Shown here piece after piece: positions 3,228-11,426 of a DNA stretch of 11,596 nucleotides; the first letter of the stretch is position 1, and every line of letters begins with the position of its first letter. Made by a program: the position numbers and the translations under genes. Location: the NCBI GenBank assembly GCA_023250585.1, contig JAHFAK010000077.1:1-11596 (forward strand), in the 5' to 3' direction. The notes below the pieces were generated by a model. It saw only the letters and a program-made list of their open reading frames with translations. It did no database searches and was not told the origin of the DNA. The DNA is from Deltaproteobacteria bacterium. Lineage in GTDB: Bacteria; Bdellovibrionota_F; JAHFAK01.

Positions 3228-3644
3228 ATGGGCTATAAAAGGATTTTTATCATCTGTATGTGCACAATGAATATTGTTTTTCCATTAAAAAGTATCGCTA
3301 AGGATTGTACTGAAATTTGGGGAAAAGGAGAATTTGAAGAGACTTCTCAAAATTCACATTCATCTATTAATGAAGAAGTTACAAAGTATTTAGAAGAAAA
3401 AAAGAGAAGCGAAACAATAAAAAACATGCAACATCTAGTTTCTGAAAGAAGAATTTTTATTCATGATGCATTAGCGTTTATATATAATACTCTTCCTCTT
3501 CAAACTCCGTTACCAAATATAAAAAGAACTCAAATTAAACGCGAATTTTCAAATGAACAAGATAAAATAATCTTTAATGCAACAATTGATACTGACGTGG
3601 AGCTTCTTTTAAAAATAGAGGAAACGAAGTTATATCAACTCTGA
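3228..3644 (+). CDS. Small exported protein of unknown function
   Basis: I do not recognise this family. From the ATG at 3228 (138 residues) the protein starts with a basic n-region (MGYKR), a hydrophobic core (IFIICMCTMNIVFPL) and a likely signal-peptidase site after SIA, just before KDC. The rest is hydrophilic and Lys/Glu-rich, with a probable helical stretch (EEVTKYLEEKKRSETIKNM). No catalytic motif is evident, and although a Cys follows the signal the residues before it do not form a lipobox. An in-frame ATG at 3213 would add five residues, but GGGG at about 3215-3218 serves the 3228 start better as a Shine-Dalgarno sequence, and the signal peptide then begins normally. It lies 37 bp after speA and may be co-transcribed. 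Its last 10 bp overlap the end of the convergent envC-like gene, so its C-terminus may have been shortened or extended recently. Confidence 0.6.
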   Translation: MGYKRIFIICMCTMNIVFPLKSIAKDCTEIWGKGEFEETSQNSHSSINEEVTKYLEEKKRSETIKNMQHLVSERRIFIHDALAFIYNTLPLQTPLPNIKRTQIKREFSNEQDKIIFNATIDTDVELLLKIEETKLYQL

Positions 3645-4864
3645 CCTTTGAATGAGCCCTTGATGCTATCAGATTTCCTCAGCCAACCTTCCGGATCAAC
3701 AGCCCTACCCTTTTCGCGGATTTCGAAATAGAGCGAACTTTCTTTAAGCGAACCCGTATCACCCGTAGTTCCAATATTTTGTCTAAGATCGACAATATCT
3801 CCTGTTTTTACCAAACGTTTATCGAGATGCGCATAGAGACTTACATAGCCCTTCCCATGGTCAACGATGACAAGATTTCCATAGCCGCTAAACCAATCAG
3901 AAAACAATACTACTCCCGGAAAAATACTGGAAACAGGCGTTCCCTTTTTACTCGCAATAAGTAATCCTCGATGAGGAAGTTTTGTCTGAGTACGAGAATC
4001 AACGATGAAACCAAATGACTTAAGAATTGTGCCTTCTAATGGTTTAGAAATTTTGCCTTTGAAAAGTTCAATATTCTTTGTATCTTTCATCTCTTCAATA
4101 ATATGAGCACCTTCTAATTTTTTTACGACTTGTTCTAACTTAGCATAGGCTTGATCCATGTCTTTGAGATAGCGCTCATACACTTCTTTACGTTTTTGTA
4201 TGTCAGCAAGAAGTATCTCTTTCTGGCGACGGAGTTCTACGAGATAAACATTTTTTGATCGCGCTTCTGTTTGGAGCTTACTATATGTTTCCATTTTTTG
4301 AGAAAGTAATTCAGTAAGCTTTTTATTTTGCCCATGAGCTTCTAATTGTGTTTCAAATGTCTTTAAATCGTATCGTACGATATGTTCGAGAATATATCTT
4401 CTGCGAACTAAATCACTATATGAAGTGCTTCCAAAGAGCACTTCCAAAAAGCCATTACTGCCAAAATAAGCCATAACGGGCAGACGTTCTTGGAGAAGTT
4501 TATTTTGCTCTGCAATTTCTTTTTCTAATTTATTTTGTTTATTCTGAAGAATATCTATTTCTTTTTTTAAAGATATTTTCTGACGTTCTAATACACTGAT
4601 TCGTCGTGTTCCATTATCAAGCTCGAATTCTACCGTATTGAATTCACTTAAAATTTTATTTTCAGTTTGTAATGTCTTTTTATATTCCTCAAGCTCATGA
4701 GCTATCTCTTTAGAAAGCAACACAAGCTTTTCATGATTAATCTCGTAAAAATCTTGGGAAAAGAGAGGACTTGATATAAAAAAAAAGATTGTCATTCCCA
4801 TGAAGGGGGTAATCAAGGAACAAAGCCTTCGTGGGAATGACAATTGAAAAAATCTTATGTTCAT
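3635..4864 (-). CDS. envC: EnvC-like murein hydrolase activator (coiled coil plus degenerate LytM/M23 domain)
   Basis: Predicted periplasmic activator of cell-separation amidases. The 409 residues comprise a signal peptide (1-37; core TIFFFISSPLF, cleavage likely after FSQ), a long charged coiled coil (about 40-265) and a C-terminal LytM fold (about 275-400). The LytM domain keeps H298 (PHRG) and H346 (LYAHLD). The Asp expected four residues after H298 is Leu, and the HxH motif is replaced by SSLYFEIR (377-383), close to the SLYFEIR of E. coli EnvC. It is therefore probably not a zinc peptidase but an EnvC-type activator. The gene starts 10 bp after ftsX, completing an ftsE-ftsX-envC order that matches the known FtsEX-EnvC complex, in which ATP hydrolysis by FtsE is relayed by FtsX to EnvC. 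Oddly, codons 7-26 lie inside an inverted repeat (4788-4844). The Shine-Dalgarno sequence is weak (GAAG). Its 3' end overlaps the convergent small gene. Confidence 0.85.
   Translation of the reverse strand: MNIRFFQLSFPRRLCSLITPFMGMTIFFFISSPLFSQDFYEINHEKLVLLSKEIAHELEEYKKTLQTENKILSEFNTVEFELDNGTRRISVLERQKISLKKEIDILQNKQNKLEKEIAEQNKLLQERLPVMAYFGSNGFLEVLFGSTSYSDLVRRRYILEHIVRYDLKTFETQLEAHGQNKKLTELLSQKMETYSKLQTEARSKNVYLVELRRQKEILLADIQKRKEVYERYLKDMDQAYAKLEQVVKKLEGAHIIEEMKDTKNIELFKGKISKPLEGTILKSFGFIVDSRTQTKLPHRGLLIASKKGTPVSSIFPGVVLFSDWFSGYGNLVIVDHGKGYVSLYAHLDKRLVKTGDIVDLRQNIGTTGDTGSLKESSLYFEIREKGRAVDPEGWLRKSDSIKGSFKGQS
4788..4844. repeat. Inverted repeat, family 1, copy 1 (inside envC signal-peptide codons)
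   Basis: The left arm 4788-4805 (ATTGTCATTCCCATGAAG) and right arm 4827-4844 (CTTCGTGGGAATGACAAT) are reverse complements over 18 bp with one mismatch, separated by 21 bp. The GTCATTCCC / GGGAATGAC ends match the second copy at 7200-7292. In the envC sense direction the hairpin is followed closely by nine consecutive T residues, so it also resembles an intrinsic terminator placed inside codons 7-29. The element is fully open in the envC frame and encodes QLSFPRR on one arm and MGMT on the other. Confidence 0.85.
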
Positions 4865-7199: not shown

Positions 7200-7292
7200 T
7201 GTCATTCCCGCAAAATCGGGGATCCAGGAAAAATAAATATGAAAAAAATGCACTCAAAACTATTCTGGATTCGCGCCTTTGCGGGAATGACA
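7200..7292. repeat. Inverted repeat, family 1, copy 2 (spans RBS, start and signal peptide of the S55 gene)
   Basis: The left arm 7200-7229 and right arm 7263-7292 are reverse complements at 25 of 30 positions by my hand alignment, separated by 33 bp. The arms begin TGTCATTCCCGC and end GCGGGAATGACA, and the inner ends read ATCCAGG and CTGGATTC. This is the general form of small palindromic repeats found in many bacterial genomes. A T-rich run (ATTTTTTATTTT) follows the right arm. The ATG of the downstream gene (7239) lies in the loop, the AGGA that can serve as its Shine-Dalgarno sequence is the inner end of the left arm, and the right arm encodes signal-peptide residues. Confidence 0.88.
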
Positions 7293-8987
7293 TTTTTTAT
7301 TTTATTCACTCAGCTTTATGCAAAAACCTCCAAAGAATTCTTTGATCTCGGCAAACTCAAAAAAGGACAGAAAGGATATGCTGAAACTGTTTTTGAAGGA
7401 ACAGAGCCAGAAAAATTTGATATAGAAGTTTTGGGGCTCTGGAAAGATGTATACCCTTCAATCGATATAGTGCTTATAAAATGTACGGGAGAAAAAATTG
7501 CCAAAGCTCATATTGCCCATGGAATGAGTGGAAGCCCCGTCTATATTGATAATAAAAAGCTTGGTGCCATTGCGATTTCTTTTGATGGCAAGGATATTGA
7601 TATTGCAGGAGTAACTCCTATTCAAGCAATGTTTAAACAAAAACGTACAAACGATGTTGCGAATTTATATGATACAATTTATTACGAAGGCACACATCTC
7701 TCACCAAAAAATGGATTAGTAACAACAGCGTCTTCAAATTTTTCAAAAAATGCACTCGCCCTTCTCAATAAAACATGGAAATCTCACGCACTTGGTGAAA
7801 TTATTGATACACCCGGCGGATATGAAGCAGGTCTGCCTGAATCTTTGAATTACAAAATAAAAGCGGGATCAATGATTGGCGTAAGCCTTGTGAAAGGCCA
7901 ATTCAGCATGACTGCTTTTGGAACCGTTACTGATGTAGAAGACAACTCATTCGTTGGATTTGGTCACCCTTTTTTAGGACTCGGGTCAGTAGAATTTCCC
8001 GTTTTCAATGCCTATACGTATATTGTTTTGCCTACAACGTTAACTTCAAATAAACTTGTAGGGCTTGGCAAAGAAATTGGAGTAATGACTGGCGATTATA
8101 TAACCGGTGTAAACGGAAATTTTAACAAACGGGCAAAACTTATTCCGGTAAACATTAGTGTACATCAAAAATCAAAAAATATTGATCAAAAGGCTTCATT
8201 TGAAGTCATCTCACATAGAGATCTTTCCACTAATTTAATTTATGCGGTTACGCAAAGCCTTATTGATGCCACCCTTTCATATGCTTCTCATAATTTGGTT
8301 CATGCAAAACTTTCCTTCAGCATGGATGGAATACAAAAGCCGTTTGAATACGACATGAGTTATTACCAAGCCCAAAATCCTCTTTCAAAAGATCTTATGT
8401 TCATCCCTGAAGTTCTCATTCAAAATCCTTATAGAGAACTCAAGCTCACCAATCTTTCTTTGGATATTTCCATTGAAAATGAAAAACGAGTCAGCATCAT
8501 TAATAAGATATGGCTTAATAAACCGCTGTCAAAGGACGAAGAAAATTATACTCTTTTTATCGAACTTTTAGAATATAACAAAAATTATAAAGTTCTCTCT
8601 CAGCGCATCAAAATTCCTACAGCAGAAATTTCAGGTCCTCTTGAAATTTCTGCTTCGAGTGGCTCACAAGTTCCGCCGTTTGAGTATCCAAATACATACA
8701 AAGAATTCATCAATTTTGTCCGAACTATTTATGGGCCCCAAGATCTTGTCGTTACCGTGACCTATCAAAAACAGGGACTGCGACTTGAAGGCAATGAGCT
8801 ACAAAATCTTCCTCAAAGCGCTTATTTTATTTATGAACGACAAAATCGTCTGAAGCTCACTCAAATAAATGAGAAGCAACGTTTCGTCCTGAAACAACAA
8901 GAAGTTATCCTTGGCAATCAATTGATAGAACTCGAGATGGAGAAGGCACATTCTTCACGTCAAAAACAAGAAGGAAACAAAAAATGA
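7239..8987 (+). CDS. Exported SpoIVB/S55-type peptidase-domain protein
   Basis: A predicted secreted or periplasmic protein of 582 residues. A signal peptide (1-28) ends at LYA, with a core GMTFFILF. Residues about 34-135 contain KKGQKGYAETVFEGTEPE, then AHGMSGSPVYIDNKKLGA (94-110) with the candidate nucleophile Ser97 or Ser99 (equivalent of the GMSGSP serine of SpoIVB), and IAGVTPIQAMF (122-132). A second block at 228-305 has FVGFGHPFLGLGS with His243, then a segment ending AKLIPVNISV. This is the S55-type family known outside sporulators; the order Ser-motif then His-motif is the reverse of SpoIVB itself. The remaining C-terminal half is beta-rich without a motif I recognise. AGGA at 7226-7229 precedes the ATG by 9 nt. 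The stop codon overlaps the next start (ATGA, 8984-8987), so both products probably act together in the envelope. The substrate is unknown. Confidence 0.75.
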   Translation: MKKMHSKLFWIRAFAGMTFFILFTQLYAKTSKEFFDLGKLKKGQKGYAETVFEGTEPEKFDIEVLGLWKDVYPSIDIVLIKCTGEKIAKAHIAHGMSGSPVYIDNKKLGAIAISFDGKDIDIAGVTPIQAMFKQKRTNDVANLYDTIYYEGTHLSPKNGLVTTASSNFSKNALALLNKTWKSHALGEIIDTPGGYEAGLPESLNYKIKAGSMIGVSLVKGQFSMTAFGTVTDVEDNSFVGFGHPFLGLGSVEFPVFNAYTYIVLPTTLTSNKLVGLGKEIGVMTGDYITGVNGNFNKRAKLIPVNISVHQKSKNIDQKASFEVISHRDLSTNLIYAVTQSLIDATLSYASHNLVHAKLSFSMDGIQKPFEYDMSYYQAQNPLSKDLMFIPEVLIQNPYRELKLTNLSLDISIENEKRVSIINKIWLNKPLSKDEENYTLFIELLEYNKNYKVLSQRIKIPTAEISGPLEISASSGSQVPPFEYPNTYKEFINFVRTIYGPQDLVVTVTYQKQGLRLEGNELQNLPQSAYFIYERQNRLKLTQINEKQRFVLKQQEVILGNQLIELEMEKAHSSRQKQEGNKK

Positions 8988-11185
8988 AAAAAAAATATTC
9001 TATACGCAACAACATAAAAAATTGCGGATACATGACGCAAGAACGAGCAGACCAAGGCACGACGAAGTCGAGAAGCGAGGCGTACGAGTTTGTACGCCGC
9101 AGCGACGAGACGAGGAGTAACGATGGTATGCGAAGTTATGGCGTCGTGTATATTATTCTTTTGTTGTTTTCTCTTCCACAATTTGTAGGAGCAGTTACGA
9201 CAACGATTTGGGAAAATAGCGATTACAAAGATTTTGAGGGAGGAAAACTTCATAATGTTTCCATTGATGAAATGGGAAGAGTTAAACCAACACGACCTTT
9301 GGAGAAATTAAAAAATGTACACTTTGATAGTATTATTGCTCTGACGAAACTCGATAATGAATTCTATATTGCGACGATTGGACCCAATGGAATTTATAAA
9401 TTTTTTCCTGATAAAAAAGAAAATACCACCGAAAAAATTTGGGATACGACCGAAGAAATTATCACCGACCTTGCATCATTTAACGGTAAACTATATTTTT
9501 CCACAATTCCTGATGGCAACCTTTATGAAATAACTCATAACAAAGTCCAAAAAGTATTAAATGTGCCCGCAAAATTTGTATGGAAGCTTCTTCCTACAAC
9601 AGACGCCCTCTATATGACAACCGGAGAACCGGGAGGAATGTTTGAACTCAGTAAAAGTAATTCGTTAAAGAAATTGTACACGCATGAAAAAATGCATTTT
9701 AAACCTCTTCTGAAACACAAAAATATCTTGTATTTTGGAGGTTCCCCTAAATCAATTCTCTACAAGATGGACGAGAAAAACAAAATTTCAGTCATGCGAG
9801 ACTTTGGTCATTCCGAAGTCGCTGATATTGAAATCTGCAATAATAGCCTTTACGTTTTAACCAATGAATTCAAAGACCGACCAGCTGAAGTAGATCCCAC
9901 TACTCCACAACCAAAAAATGAAAAATCGCAGAGCCCCATCGAATTATTTTCTCTTTATGAATTCAGCAAAGATGAAGTAAAACGATTGTTCATGCAAAAA
10001 AATGAAATGGGTACTGATCTTGTCTGTAACAATAATGCTCTGCTGATTGCCACAAATCCGCAGGGAAAAATTTATTCTTATTCGGCGATAACTCAAAACG
10101 TTTCTTTGCTCTATGATTTAGACGATCAATTTATTTTTTCGTTGCGATTTTTTGATGAGGAACACGCATTTATGAGCACCGGCAATGAAGGAACAATCTA
10201 TAAAATTAAACCTAAACTTGGTGATGAATCATATTATATTTCAAAAGTGCTCGATACTCTTTTTACTTCACAATGGGGCAATTTTACGTTACGTCACGAA
10301 GGAGAACTCACGAGCTCATTTCGCACAGGTAATACCGTTGAACCTGATGAAACATGGACGGAATGGACATCTGATTGTAAAGAGTCTGAATGCATGATTA
10401 AAAATTCTTCCGCTCGATTTATTCAATATCGAGTGACTTTTAAAGATCTTGAAAATAGTTTCTTCACCGACGTACATCTTGCATATCATACAAAGAATCA
10501 AAAACCCATTATCCGATTTATAAAAATCAATGCTGATAGCGTTCAAAAAAGAAAACCACAAAATGATGCCACTGAAGATAATCAAAATGAAATTTCCGGA
10601 TATCTTTTTCCCGTGGTTCGTATCGAACGAGTGGTAAAAGTCATTGAGCCCCACAGCTCATTAAAAGAAATTGCGTGGGATGCTTTTGATTATGATCAAG
10701 ACGTTCTTGCCTATGATTTATTCTTTAAAATGGTCGAAGATACGGAATGGAAAAAAATTGCCCAAGCAGAAGACTTATTACAAACAAATTTTTTATGGAA
10801 TACTGAAAGCATTCCAAGTGGGCTTTACGAAGTTAAACTGATTGCTAAAGACACTTTTGATAATACCAACGAAGAGAAAAAAGAAACGTCTCAAATATCT
10901 TCTCGCTTCTTGATTGACAATGAAGCACCTCGGTTTGACAAAATTGAAACCAAAAACAACCATATCGAAGGTATCGTAAAAGACTCATTTAGTCGTATCA
11001 TGCAAATTGATTATTCTATCGATGGTATGCAATGGCGCATGATACGCCCGACTGATGGCCTTTATGATGAAAAAACTGAAGAATTTTCTTTCTCGGTTGA
11101 ATTACCAAAAAAAAGCCACTCAATTGCCCTGCGTGCTTTTGATGCAGAATCAAATCTTGTTACCACGTATCTAAAAATCCAATAA
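8984..11185 (+). CDS. Exported seven-bladed beta-propeller protein with C-terminal Ig/FN3-like domains
   Basis: 733 residues from the ATG at 8984. Seven recurring segments of the form LYxxTxxxGxIYxx are visible at about 127-140, 170-183, 209-222, 249-262, 289-327, 353-366 and 395-408, consistent with one beta-propeller. A jelly-roll-like region follows (about 430-500, with RFIQYRVTF), then two Ig/FN3-like modules (about 560-645 and 650-733; FLIDNEAPRF joins them). No catalytic motif is evident, so a binding or scaffold role is inferred. The start is ambiguous. The ATG at 8984 overlaps the previous stop and has GAAGGA upstream, but it places 48 hydrophilic residues, mostly encoded by a repeat (9000-9088), before the signal peptide. 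An internal ATG at 9128 begins directly at that signal peptide (MRSYGVVYIILLLFSL, ending VGA) and has GAGGAG 10 nt upstream. Coupling to the S55 gene suggests a shared function. Confidence 0.7.
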   Translation: MKKKYSIRNNIKNCGYMTQERADQGTTKSRSEAYEFVRRSDETRSNDGMRSYGVVYIILLLFSLPQFVGAVTTTIWENSDYKDFEGGKLHNVSIDEMGRVKPTRPLEKLKNVHFDSIIALTKLDNEFYIATIGPNGIYKFFPDKKENTTEKIWDTTEEIITDLASFNGKLYFSTIPDGNLYEITHNKVQKVLNVPAKFVWKLLPTTDALYMTTGEPGGMFELSKSNSLKKLYTHEKMHFKPLLKHKNILYFGGSPKSILYKMDEKNKISVMRDFGHSEVADIEICNNSLYVLTNEFKDRPAEVDPTTPQPKNEKSQSPIELFSLYEFSKDEVKRLFMQKNEMGTDLVCNNNALLIATNPQGKIYSYSAITQNVSLLYDLDDQFIFSLRFFDEEHAFMSTGNEGTIYKIKPKLGDESYYISKVLDTLFTSQWGNFTLRHEGELTSSFRTGNTVEPDETWTEWTSDCKESECMIKNSSARFIQYRVTFKDLENSFFTDVHLAYHTKNQKPIIRFIKINADSVQKRKPQNDATEDNQNEISGYLFPVVRIERVVKVIEPHSSLKEIAWDAFDYDQDVLAYDLFFKMVEDTEWKKIAQAEDLLQTNFLWNTESIPSGLYEVKLIAKDTFDNTNEEKKETSQISSRFLIDNEAPRFDKIETKNNHIEGIVKDSFSRIMQIDYSIDGMQWRMIRPTDGLYDEKTEEFSFSVELPKKSHSIALRAFDAESNLVTTYLKIQ
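9000..9098 (+). repeat. Family 2 repeat, copy A, with terminal hairpin (5' end of the propeller gene)
   Basis: Positions 9000-9088 align without gaps to 11275-11363, with 81 of 89 bases identical by hand count. The central stretch from ACGCAAGAACGAGC to AAGTCGAG is identical. The element is clearly more GC-rich than its surroundings. Near its left end TTGCG and CGCAA form a short inverted repeat in both copies, and at its right end GGCGTAC (9079-9085) pairs perfectly with GTACGCC (9092-9098) around a 6-nt loop. It is open in the propeller frame and encodes TQERADQGTTKSRSEAYE. Confidence 0.85.
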
Positions 11186-11255: not shown

Positions 11256-11426
11256 ATGAAACAAATTCATGTACCTATACACAACGACATAAATAATTGC
11301 GTATACACAACGCAAGAACGAGCAGACCAAGGCACGACGAAGTCGAGGAGCGAGGCGTATGAGCATACACAGATAGTATGTGAGGACTGTGGTTTTACGT
11401 GCAACGATGCAGATGGGCCTTTGTAG
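11256..11426 (+). CDS. Small ORF carrying the family 2 repeat (56 residues, uncertain)
   Basis: An ATG at 11256 is preceded by a strong Shine-Dalgarno sequence (GGAGGG, about 11246-11251). The reading frame starts MKQIHVPIHND, continues through the repeat-encoded TTQERADQGTTKSRSEAYE, and ends with a short Cys-containing tail (VCEDCGFTCND). Residues 8-35 match residues 7-35 of the propeller protein closely because both come from the repeat. There is no signal peptide and no known domain. It could be a real small protein, the remnant of a gene interrupted by the repeat, or a non-coding repeat with a chance start. The good ribosome-binding site is the main argument for translation. It ends 6 bp from the convergent gene at 11433. 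Confidence 0.35.
   Translation: MKQIHVPIHNDINNCVYTTQERADQGTTKSRSEAYEHTQIVCEDCGFTCNDADGPL
11275..11368 (+). repeat. Family 2 repeat, copy B
   Basis: This copy aligns with copy A over 11275-11363 (eight substitutions, no gaps). At its right end GTAT (11357-11360) and ATAC (11365-11368) can pair around a GAGC loop. The pairing replaces the GTAC pairing of copy A at the same place, although the sequences diverge from there on. The TTGCG/CGCAA inverted repeat is conserved. Confidence 0.8.

Follow-up and report, generated by a model that had tools for sequence, protein, structure and literature searches.

A REP-type palindromic repeat at the signal-peptide codons of an S55-like gene: a probable tolerated in-frame insertion, with further apparent cases in the same genome

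Intragenic REPs, Rickettsia palindromic elements (RPEs) and a predicted signal peptide derived from the RU-2 repeat are already known. REPs of the CGTC-1 type, such as dRS3 of Neisseria and RPE-6 of Rickettsia, carry a CGTC tag, have some copies inside open reading frames and are not obviously linked to a transposase (PMC3733652). RPEs (Ogata et al., as reviewed) are palindromic repeats inserted in frame in protein genes, including those of cytosolic enzymes (PMC2229807, PMC10969869). Moreover, the RU-2/YPAL element in YPO1552 gives rise to a repeat-derived predicted signal peptide (Delihas 2007; PMC2759123).

The locus described here belongs to a 2.24-Mb draft genome of 164 contigs, and the window, the whole stretch of 11,596 nucleotides that was analysed, is all of contig C152. 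Elsewhere in the genome, the stretches around the repeats were analysed. Gene calls are simple codon-usage calls, and signal peptides were called throughout with a simple hydropathy scan. The features of the window are collected in Table 1.

Table 1. Repeats and genes of the window
Feature	Position	Strand	Content	Basis
Left arm	7200..7227	+	REP unit (tag TGTC, stem, CCAG tail), 5' of the S55-like gene; untranslated if the start is 7239	Inverted repeat; matches the genome family with 3 mismatches
Spacer	7228..7264	+	37 nt; GA of the SD-like AGGA, ATG 7239, codons 1-8 and most of codon 9	No alignment to the canonical 18-nt spacer
Right arm	7265..7292	+	REP unit, in-frame WIRAFAGMT; holds the alternative start ATG of M17	
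S55 (SpoIVB-like) exported protein	7239..8987	+	582 aa	Pfam Peptidase_S55 22 bits, cut-off 25
Host-encoded signal-peptide core and cleavage region (FFILFTQLYA-K)	7292..7322	+		Sequence; simple hydropathy scan
Second REP-type copy	4790..4842	-	21 nt shorter than canonical; in frame in the M23/PcsB-like signal peptide	
M23 peptidase with coiled coil (MNIRFFQLSFPRRLCSLITPFMGMTIFFFISSPLFSQ...)	3635..4864	-		
Family B palindrome	8990..9152	+	In frame at the N-terminus of ORF 8984-11185; ATG and last codons MRSYGVVYI adjoin the hydrophobic core ILLLFSLPQFVGA	
ORF without Pfam match	8984..11185	+	733 aa; signal peptide partly encoded by family B	

An earlier note on this DNA had proposed that a 93-bp inverted repeat at 7200-7292 supplies the ribosome-binding site, start codon and signal peptide of the S55-like protein. 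The inverted repeat itself was borne out by the complementarity of its arms (28 nt each, 86% complementary, 37 nt apart), by its predicted RNA fold (-41.7 kcal/mol versus a shuffled mean of -17.6; z = -8.2; 0 of 200 shuffles equally stable) and by copies across the genome. The search for repeat pairs suggested in the same note found GTCATTCCC-N(10-80)-GGGAATGAC at six places, versus none for the reversed-pattern control, and the half-site with up to three mismatches occurs 39 times (control 0). An Rfam search of the window gave no match. Misassembly is an unlikely origin of the repeat because the copies in the window have diverged and their spacers are unique.

A 72-nt REP-type dimer is present at about 25-27 places in the genome, and the S55 repeat is a diverged copy of it. 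The canonical dimer consists of GTCATTCCCGCGAAGGCGGGGATCCAG, 18 nt and CTGGATTCCCGCCTTCGCGGGAATGAC, with 27-nt arms that point outwards. Each arm is a small hairpin of consensus ATTCCCGC-GAAG-GCGGGAAT with a CCAG tail, and (A/G)ATCCAG follows most half-sites. Dimers of 72 nt with the tags outside are found on contigs C80, C83, C100, C109, C111, C117 and others, together with short, truncated and nested forms. In L072 (contig C15, element 4090-4233) a third palindrome (GTCATTGCGAGGAGCGA...) lies between the arms of a REP dimer, within its spacer. Contigs C4 and C6 (L061 and L062) both end at apparently one and the same REP copy, the assembly breaking at the repeat. In RAYT-mobilised (GTAG) REPs the repeat flanks a cognate Y1 transposase gene. 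Y1_Tnp genes are present here on contigs C13, C32 and C69, with no clear link to the repeat: no half-site was found near those of C13 or C69, and one loose match lies near that of C32. When 386 genomes were searched for an arm with hydrophobic codons after it, three matches turned up outside this genome, and the two inspected were not this repeat.

The protein is described here as S55-like: it scores 22.0 bits with Peptidase_S55 (SpoIVB, PF05580), below the gathering cut-off of 25, and its sequence contains a GMSGSPV motif. Its reading frame is open from 7167 and the ATG at 7239 is the first start codon, with AGGA nine bases 5' of it; no in-frame ATG, GTG or TTG occurs between the upstream stop and 7239. 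The positions given earlier for the SD-like AGGA, at the end of the stem (7226-7229), and for the ATG, in the loop (inside the spacer), were confirmed. Codons 1-9 (MKKMHSKLF) lie in the spacer except for the final base of codon 9, at the border of the arm. The arm had been read as codons 9-18 (FWIRAFAGMT); it does provide in-frame codons, but these are codons 10-18, and F9 straddles the border between spacer and arm. The first and second candidate starts are spacer codons and the third is a codon of the right arm, so that with any of them the start codon falls within the element. The only candidate downstream of the spacer is M17, itself in the arm, from which the leader would have 12 residues and a charge of 0. 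Given this, and the lack of a start upstream of 7239, the signal peptide almost certainly includes residues encoded by the repeat. Read from M1, the leader has a charge of +4, the core FFILFTQL and an L-Y-A site, and presents the charged n-region, hydrophobic core and small residues at -3/-1 typical of Sec signal peptides.

As the earlier note had stated, the signal-peptide core follows directly, FFILFTQLYA adjoining the right arm; this export core is, on the sequence, host and not repeat. When the arm codons are removed, MKKMHSKLF-FFILFTQLYA remains, which is a normal signal peptide. Thus the proposal that the repeat provides all three elements stands only in part: arm codons appear to be translated in the leader and the start lies inside the element, but the spacer that holds the ribosome-binding site, the ATG and codons 1-9 does not align with the canonical one, and the core comes from the host. 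Alignment did not support derivation of the 37-nt spacer from the canonical 18-nt one (shuffle p of about 0.36, genomic null 0.55). Because of this difference in length and the failed alignment, the ribosome-binding site and ATG may be host sequence caught between the arms, or a replaced spacer. Furthermore, most of the SD is base-paired in the predicted hairpin, so the repeat could just as well impede initiation as provide for it, and an efficient start at 7239 is not assured.

Homologs of the S55-like protein were found in 14 of 59 genomes. They are distant (about 27-28% identical) and carry signal peptides in the same place with unrelated sequence. Contig scans with the S55 and SpeA proteins gave no close orthologs, and the one same-class genome compared had no S55 match. 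These scans thus gave no empty site, and the order of events at this gene is a proposed one.

The same REP-type repeat is found in frame in other genes. Two other signal peptides, those of the M23 gene (4864, minus strand) and of L073 on contig C56, contain the arm frame WIPAFAGMT. The L073 element has the full 72 nt, its arm ATG is now ATA and there is no usable start between it and the core; the repeat must therefore be translated in L073 if the protein is exported. A start at M22 in the M23 gene or at M17 in the S55-like gene remains conceivable. PdxA carries a single REP unit in frame (LDSRLRGND; L065 2094-2120, contig C67) and is six residues longer there than its PDB homologs, and three further REP-type copies overlap C-terminal codons.

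A second palindrome, family B, is unrelated to the REP-type repeat. It has the form TATACACAACG...CGTTGTGTATA, ends in CGAGGAGTAACGAAGGTATGCGAAGTTATGGCGTTGTGTATA and gave 42 matches, a number that includes partial and marginal ones; the one same-class genome compared had no convincing copy. Near the right end of the copy next to the S55-like gene (8990-9152) there are an SD-like AGGAG and an ATG, and a partial second copy (11275-11363) lies after the following ORF. Family B forms in-frame N-termini in that ORF (8984), a secretin (L105), a PEGA lipoprotein (L099), two exported-looking ORFs of L089, an LPG_synthase_TM protein (L088) and PurE (L097); in PurE, homology to a solved structure begins at the end of the element. 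In L083 (8768-8890, contig C106) family B is read through in frame within a 1167-aa exported-looking PD40 protein. It is conceivable, although we hold it only tentatively, that these two unrelated families act as portable gene 5' ends. Family B would bring AGGAG, an ATG and hydrophobic end codons (MRSYGVVYI or, in a different frame, MTRRGVTKVCEVMALCI), and together with the REP dimer it would have given starts and parts of signal peptides or first membrane segments to about nine exported or membrane proteins.

The S55 arrangement is probably a tolerated in-frame insertion of a REP-type dimer in or just before the signal-peptide codons, although translation, export, insertion as a single event and tolerance rather than benefit are parts of this reading that we infer. 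This is the simplest reading because the leader without its nine arm codons is still an ordinary signal peptide. A dimer with 27-nt outward arms, like those of the CGTC-1/dRS3/RPE-6 class, would have landed at the 5' end of the gene with its right arm in the one frame that is both open and hydrophobic (WIPAFAGMT). The arm would now be translated, its residues coming after the charged n-region MKKMHSK and ahead of the hydrophobic core. Export signals can be formed by many different hydrophobic sequences. A leader that accepts additional hydrophobic residues, and is later cleaved off together with them, could explain how the insert survived, and similar insertions would have been repeated in the genome with the REP-type repeat and with the unrelated family B.

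An alternative that we consider rather unlikely, although not strongly so, is that two independent single REP units flank the original ribosome-binding site, ATG and n-region, one upstream and the other in frame after codon 9, which would be compatible with translation of the arm. The spacer indeed resembles a normal ribosome-binding site plus n-region, unlike the canonical spacer, and single or short units are found in PdxA and other places; however, extra material within a dimer spacer is also seen in L072, and the outward orientation fits a single dimer. By eye, the GCAAA variant in both arms and the asymmetry between left GGGGATC and right GAATC are common to the S55 arms and the dimer of contig C15, and these shared variants favour one dimer over two chance singlets.

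The earlier note went further and regarded the repeat as recruited for initiation and export. Positive recruitment, in which the hairpin would regulate initiation, the WIRAFAGMT codons would improve export and selection would keep the repeat, is improbable, since tolerated insertion explains the data and selection for recruitment is unsupported. In its favour, the SD-like AGGA is partly paired at the stem end and the loop holds the ATG; the arm has also stayed open as it changed, in ways that fit a signal peptide (P to R in the S55-like gene). Each copy has few substitutions, however, too few for a selection test. In a hand count, nine of the ten in-frame fusions at N-termini involve exported or membrane proteins, versus three of 17 genes closely preceded by an unfused repeat (Fisher p = 0.0008); with two to four assignments shifted against the trend p becomes 0.013 and 0.057, an earlier and shorter list gave 0.0075, and the baseline for N-terminal hydrophobic segments, liberally counted, is 38%. 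This excess of export among the fusions is suggestive only, because the list was drawn up with the data already in view and fusions to cytosolic proteins are harder to recognise. Besides, tolerance predicts an equal concentration, as leaders accept inserts more easily than folded domains do.

Also improbable is a misassigned start, with translation from M17, the hairpin as 5' UTR and only MT of the repeat translated: it has been argued that many N-terminal REPs are extragenic and their starts misannotated (PMC3733652), and GGGAATG puts an ATG in every intact arm, but the resulting leader MTFFILFTQLYA would have 12 residues and no positive charge, M17 has no SD at proper spacing and its ATG would lie in the predicted -41.7 kcal/mol stem, and this escape is absent in L073, where the ATG is ATA.

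If tolerated insertion is correct, export signals would be a harmless entry point for mobile repeats into proteins and a route to new leaders. N-terminal REPs are usually dismissed as misannotated starts, whereas several of those found here are not easily dismissed and are on signal peptides, which would call for caution against the automatic trimming of such starts. The view that use as a signal peptide is unusual has to be qualified by the published intragenic REPs, by the published repeat-derived predicted signal peptide and by the several further cases in this genome. A literature search for the encoded peptides found nothing. What appears new, as we found no description of it, is that two repeat families of a single genome recur at export signals, and that a downstream start is excluded in at least one of the genes.

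Concerning the described systems, the repeat shares with the CGTC-1 REPs an 8-bp stem (8-9 bp being the range of that class), a 4-nt loop, a CCA tail at the untagged end, predominantly head-head dimers, some copies inside ORFs and, on the searches made here, no obvious link to a transposase (PMC3733652). It differs in the first base of the tag, and it is described as REP-type and CGTC-1-like but kept outside CGTC-1 because the tag is TGTC, not CGTC, in 39 of 42 half-sites. A further difference is that misannotated starts cannot account for all of its N-terminal copies, as L073 illustrates. Like the RPEs, it is a palindromic repeat that is found in frame in protein genes (PMC2229807, PMC10969869). 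RPEs are given as 105-146 nt long (PMC2229807); the inserts in this genome are found mainly at export signals, and the start codon can lie within them. Finally, RU-2/YPAL is an unrelated element with YPO1552 as its main example (PMC2759123), whereas here several genes and two element families are involved in a single genome.
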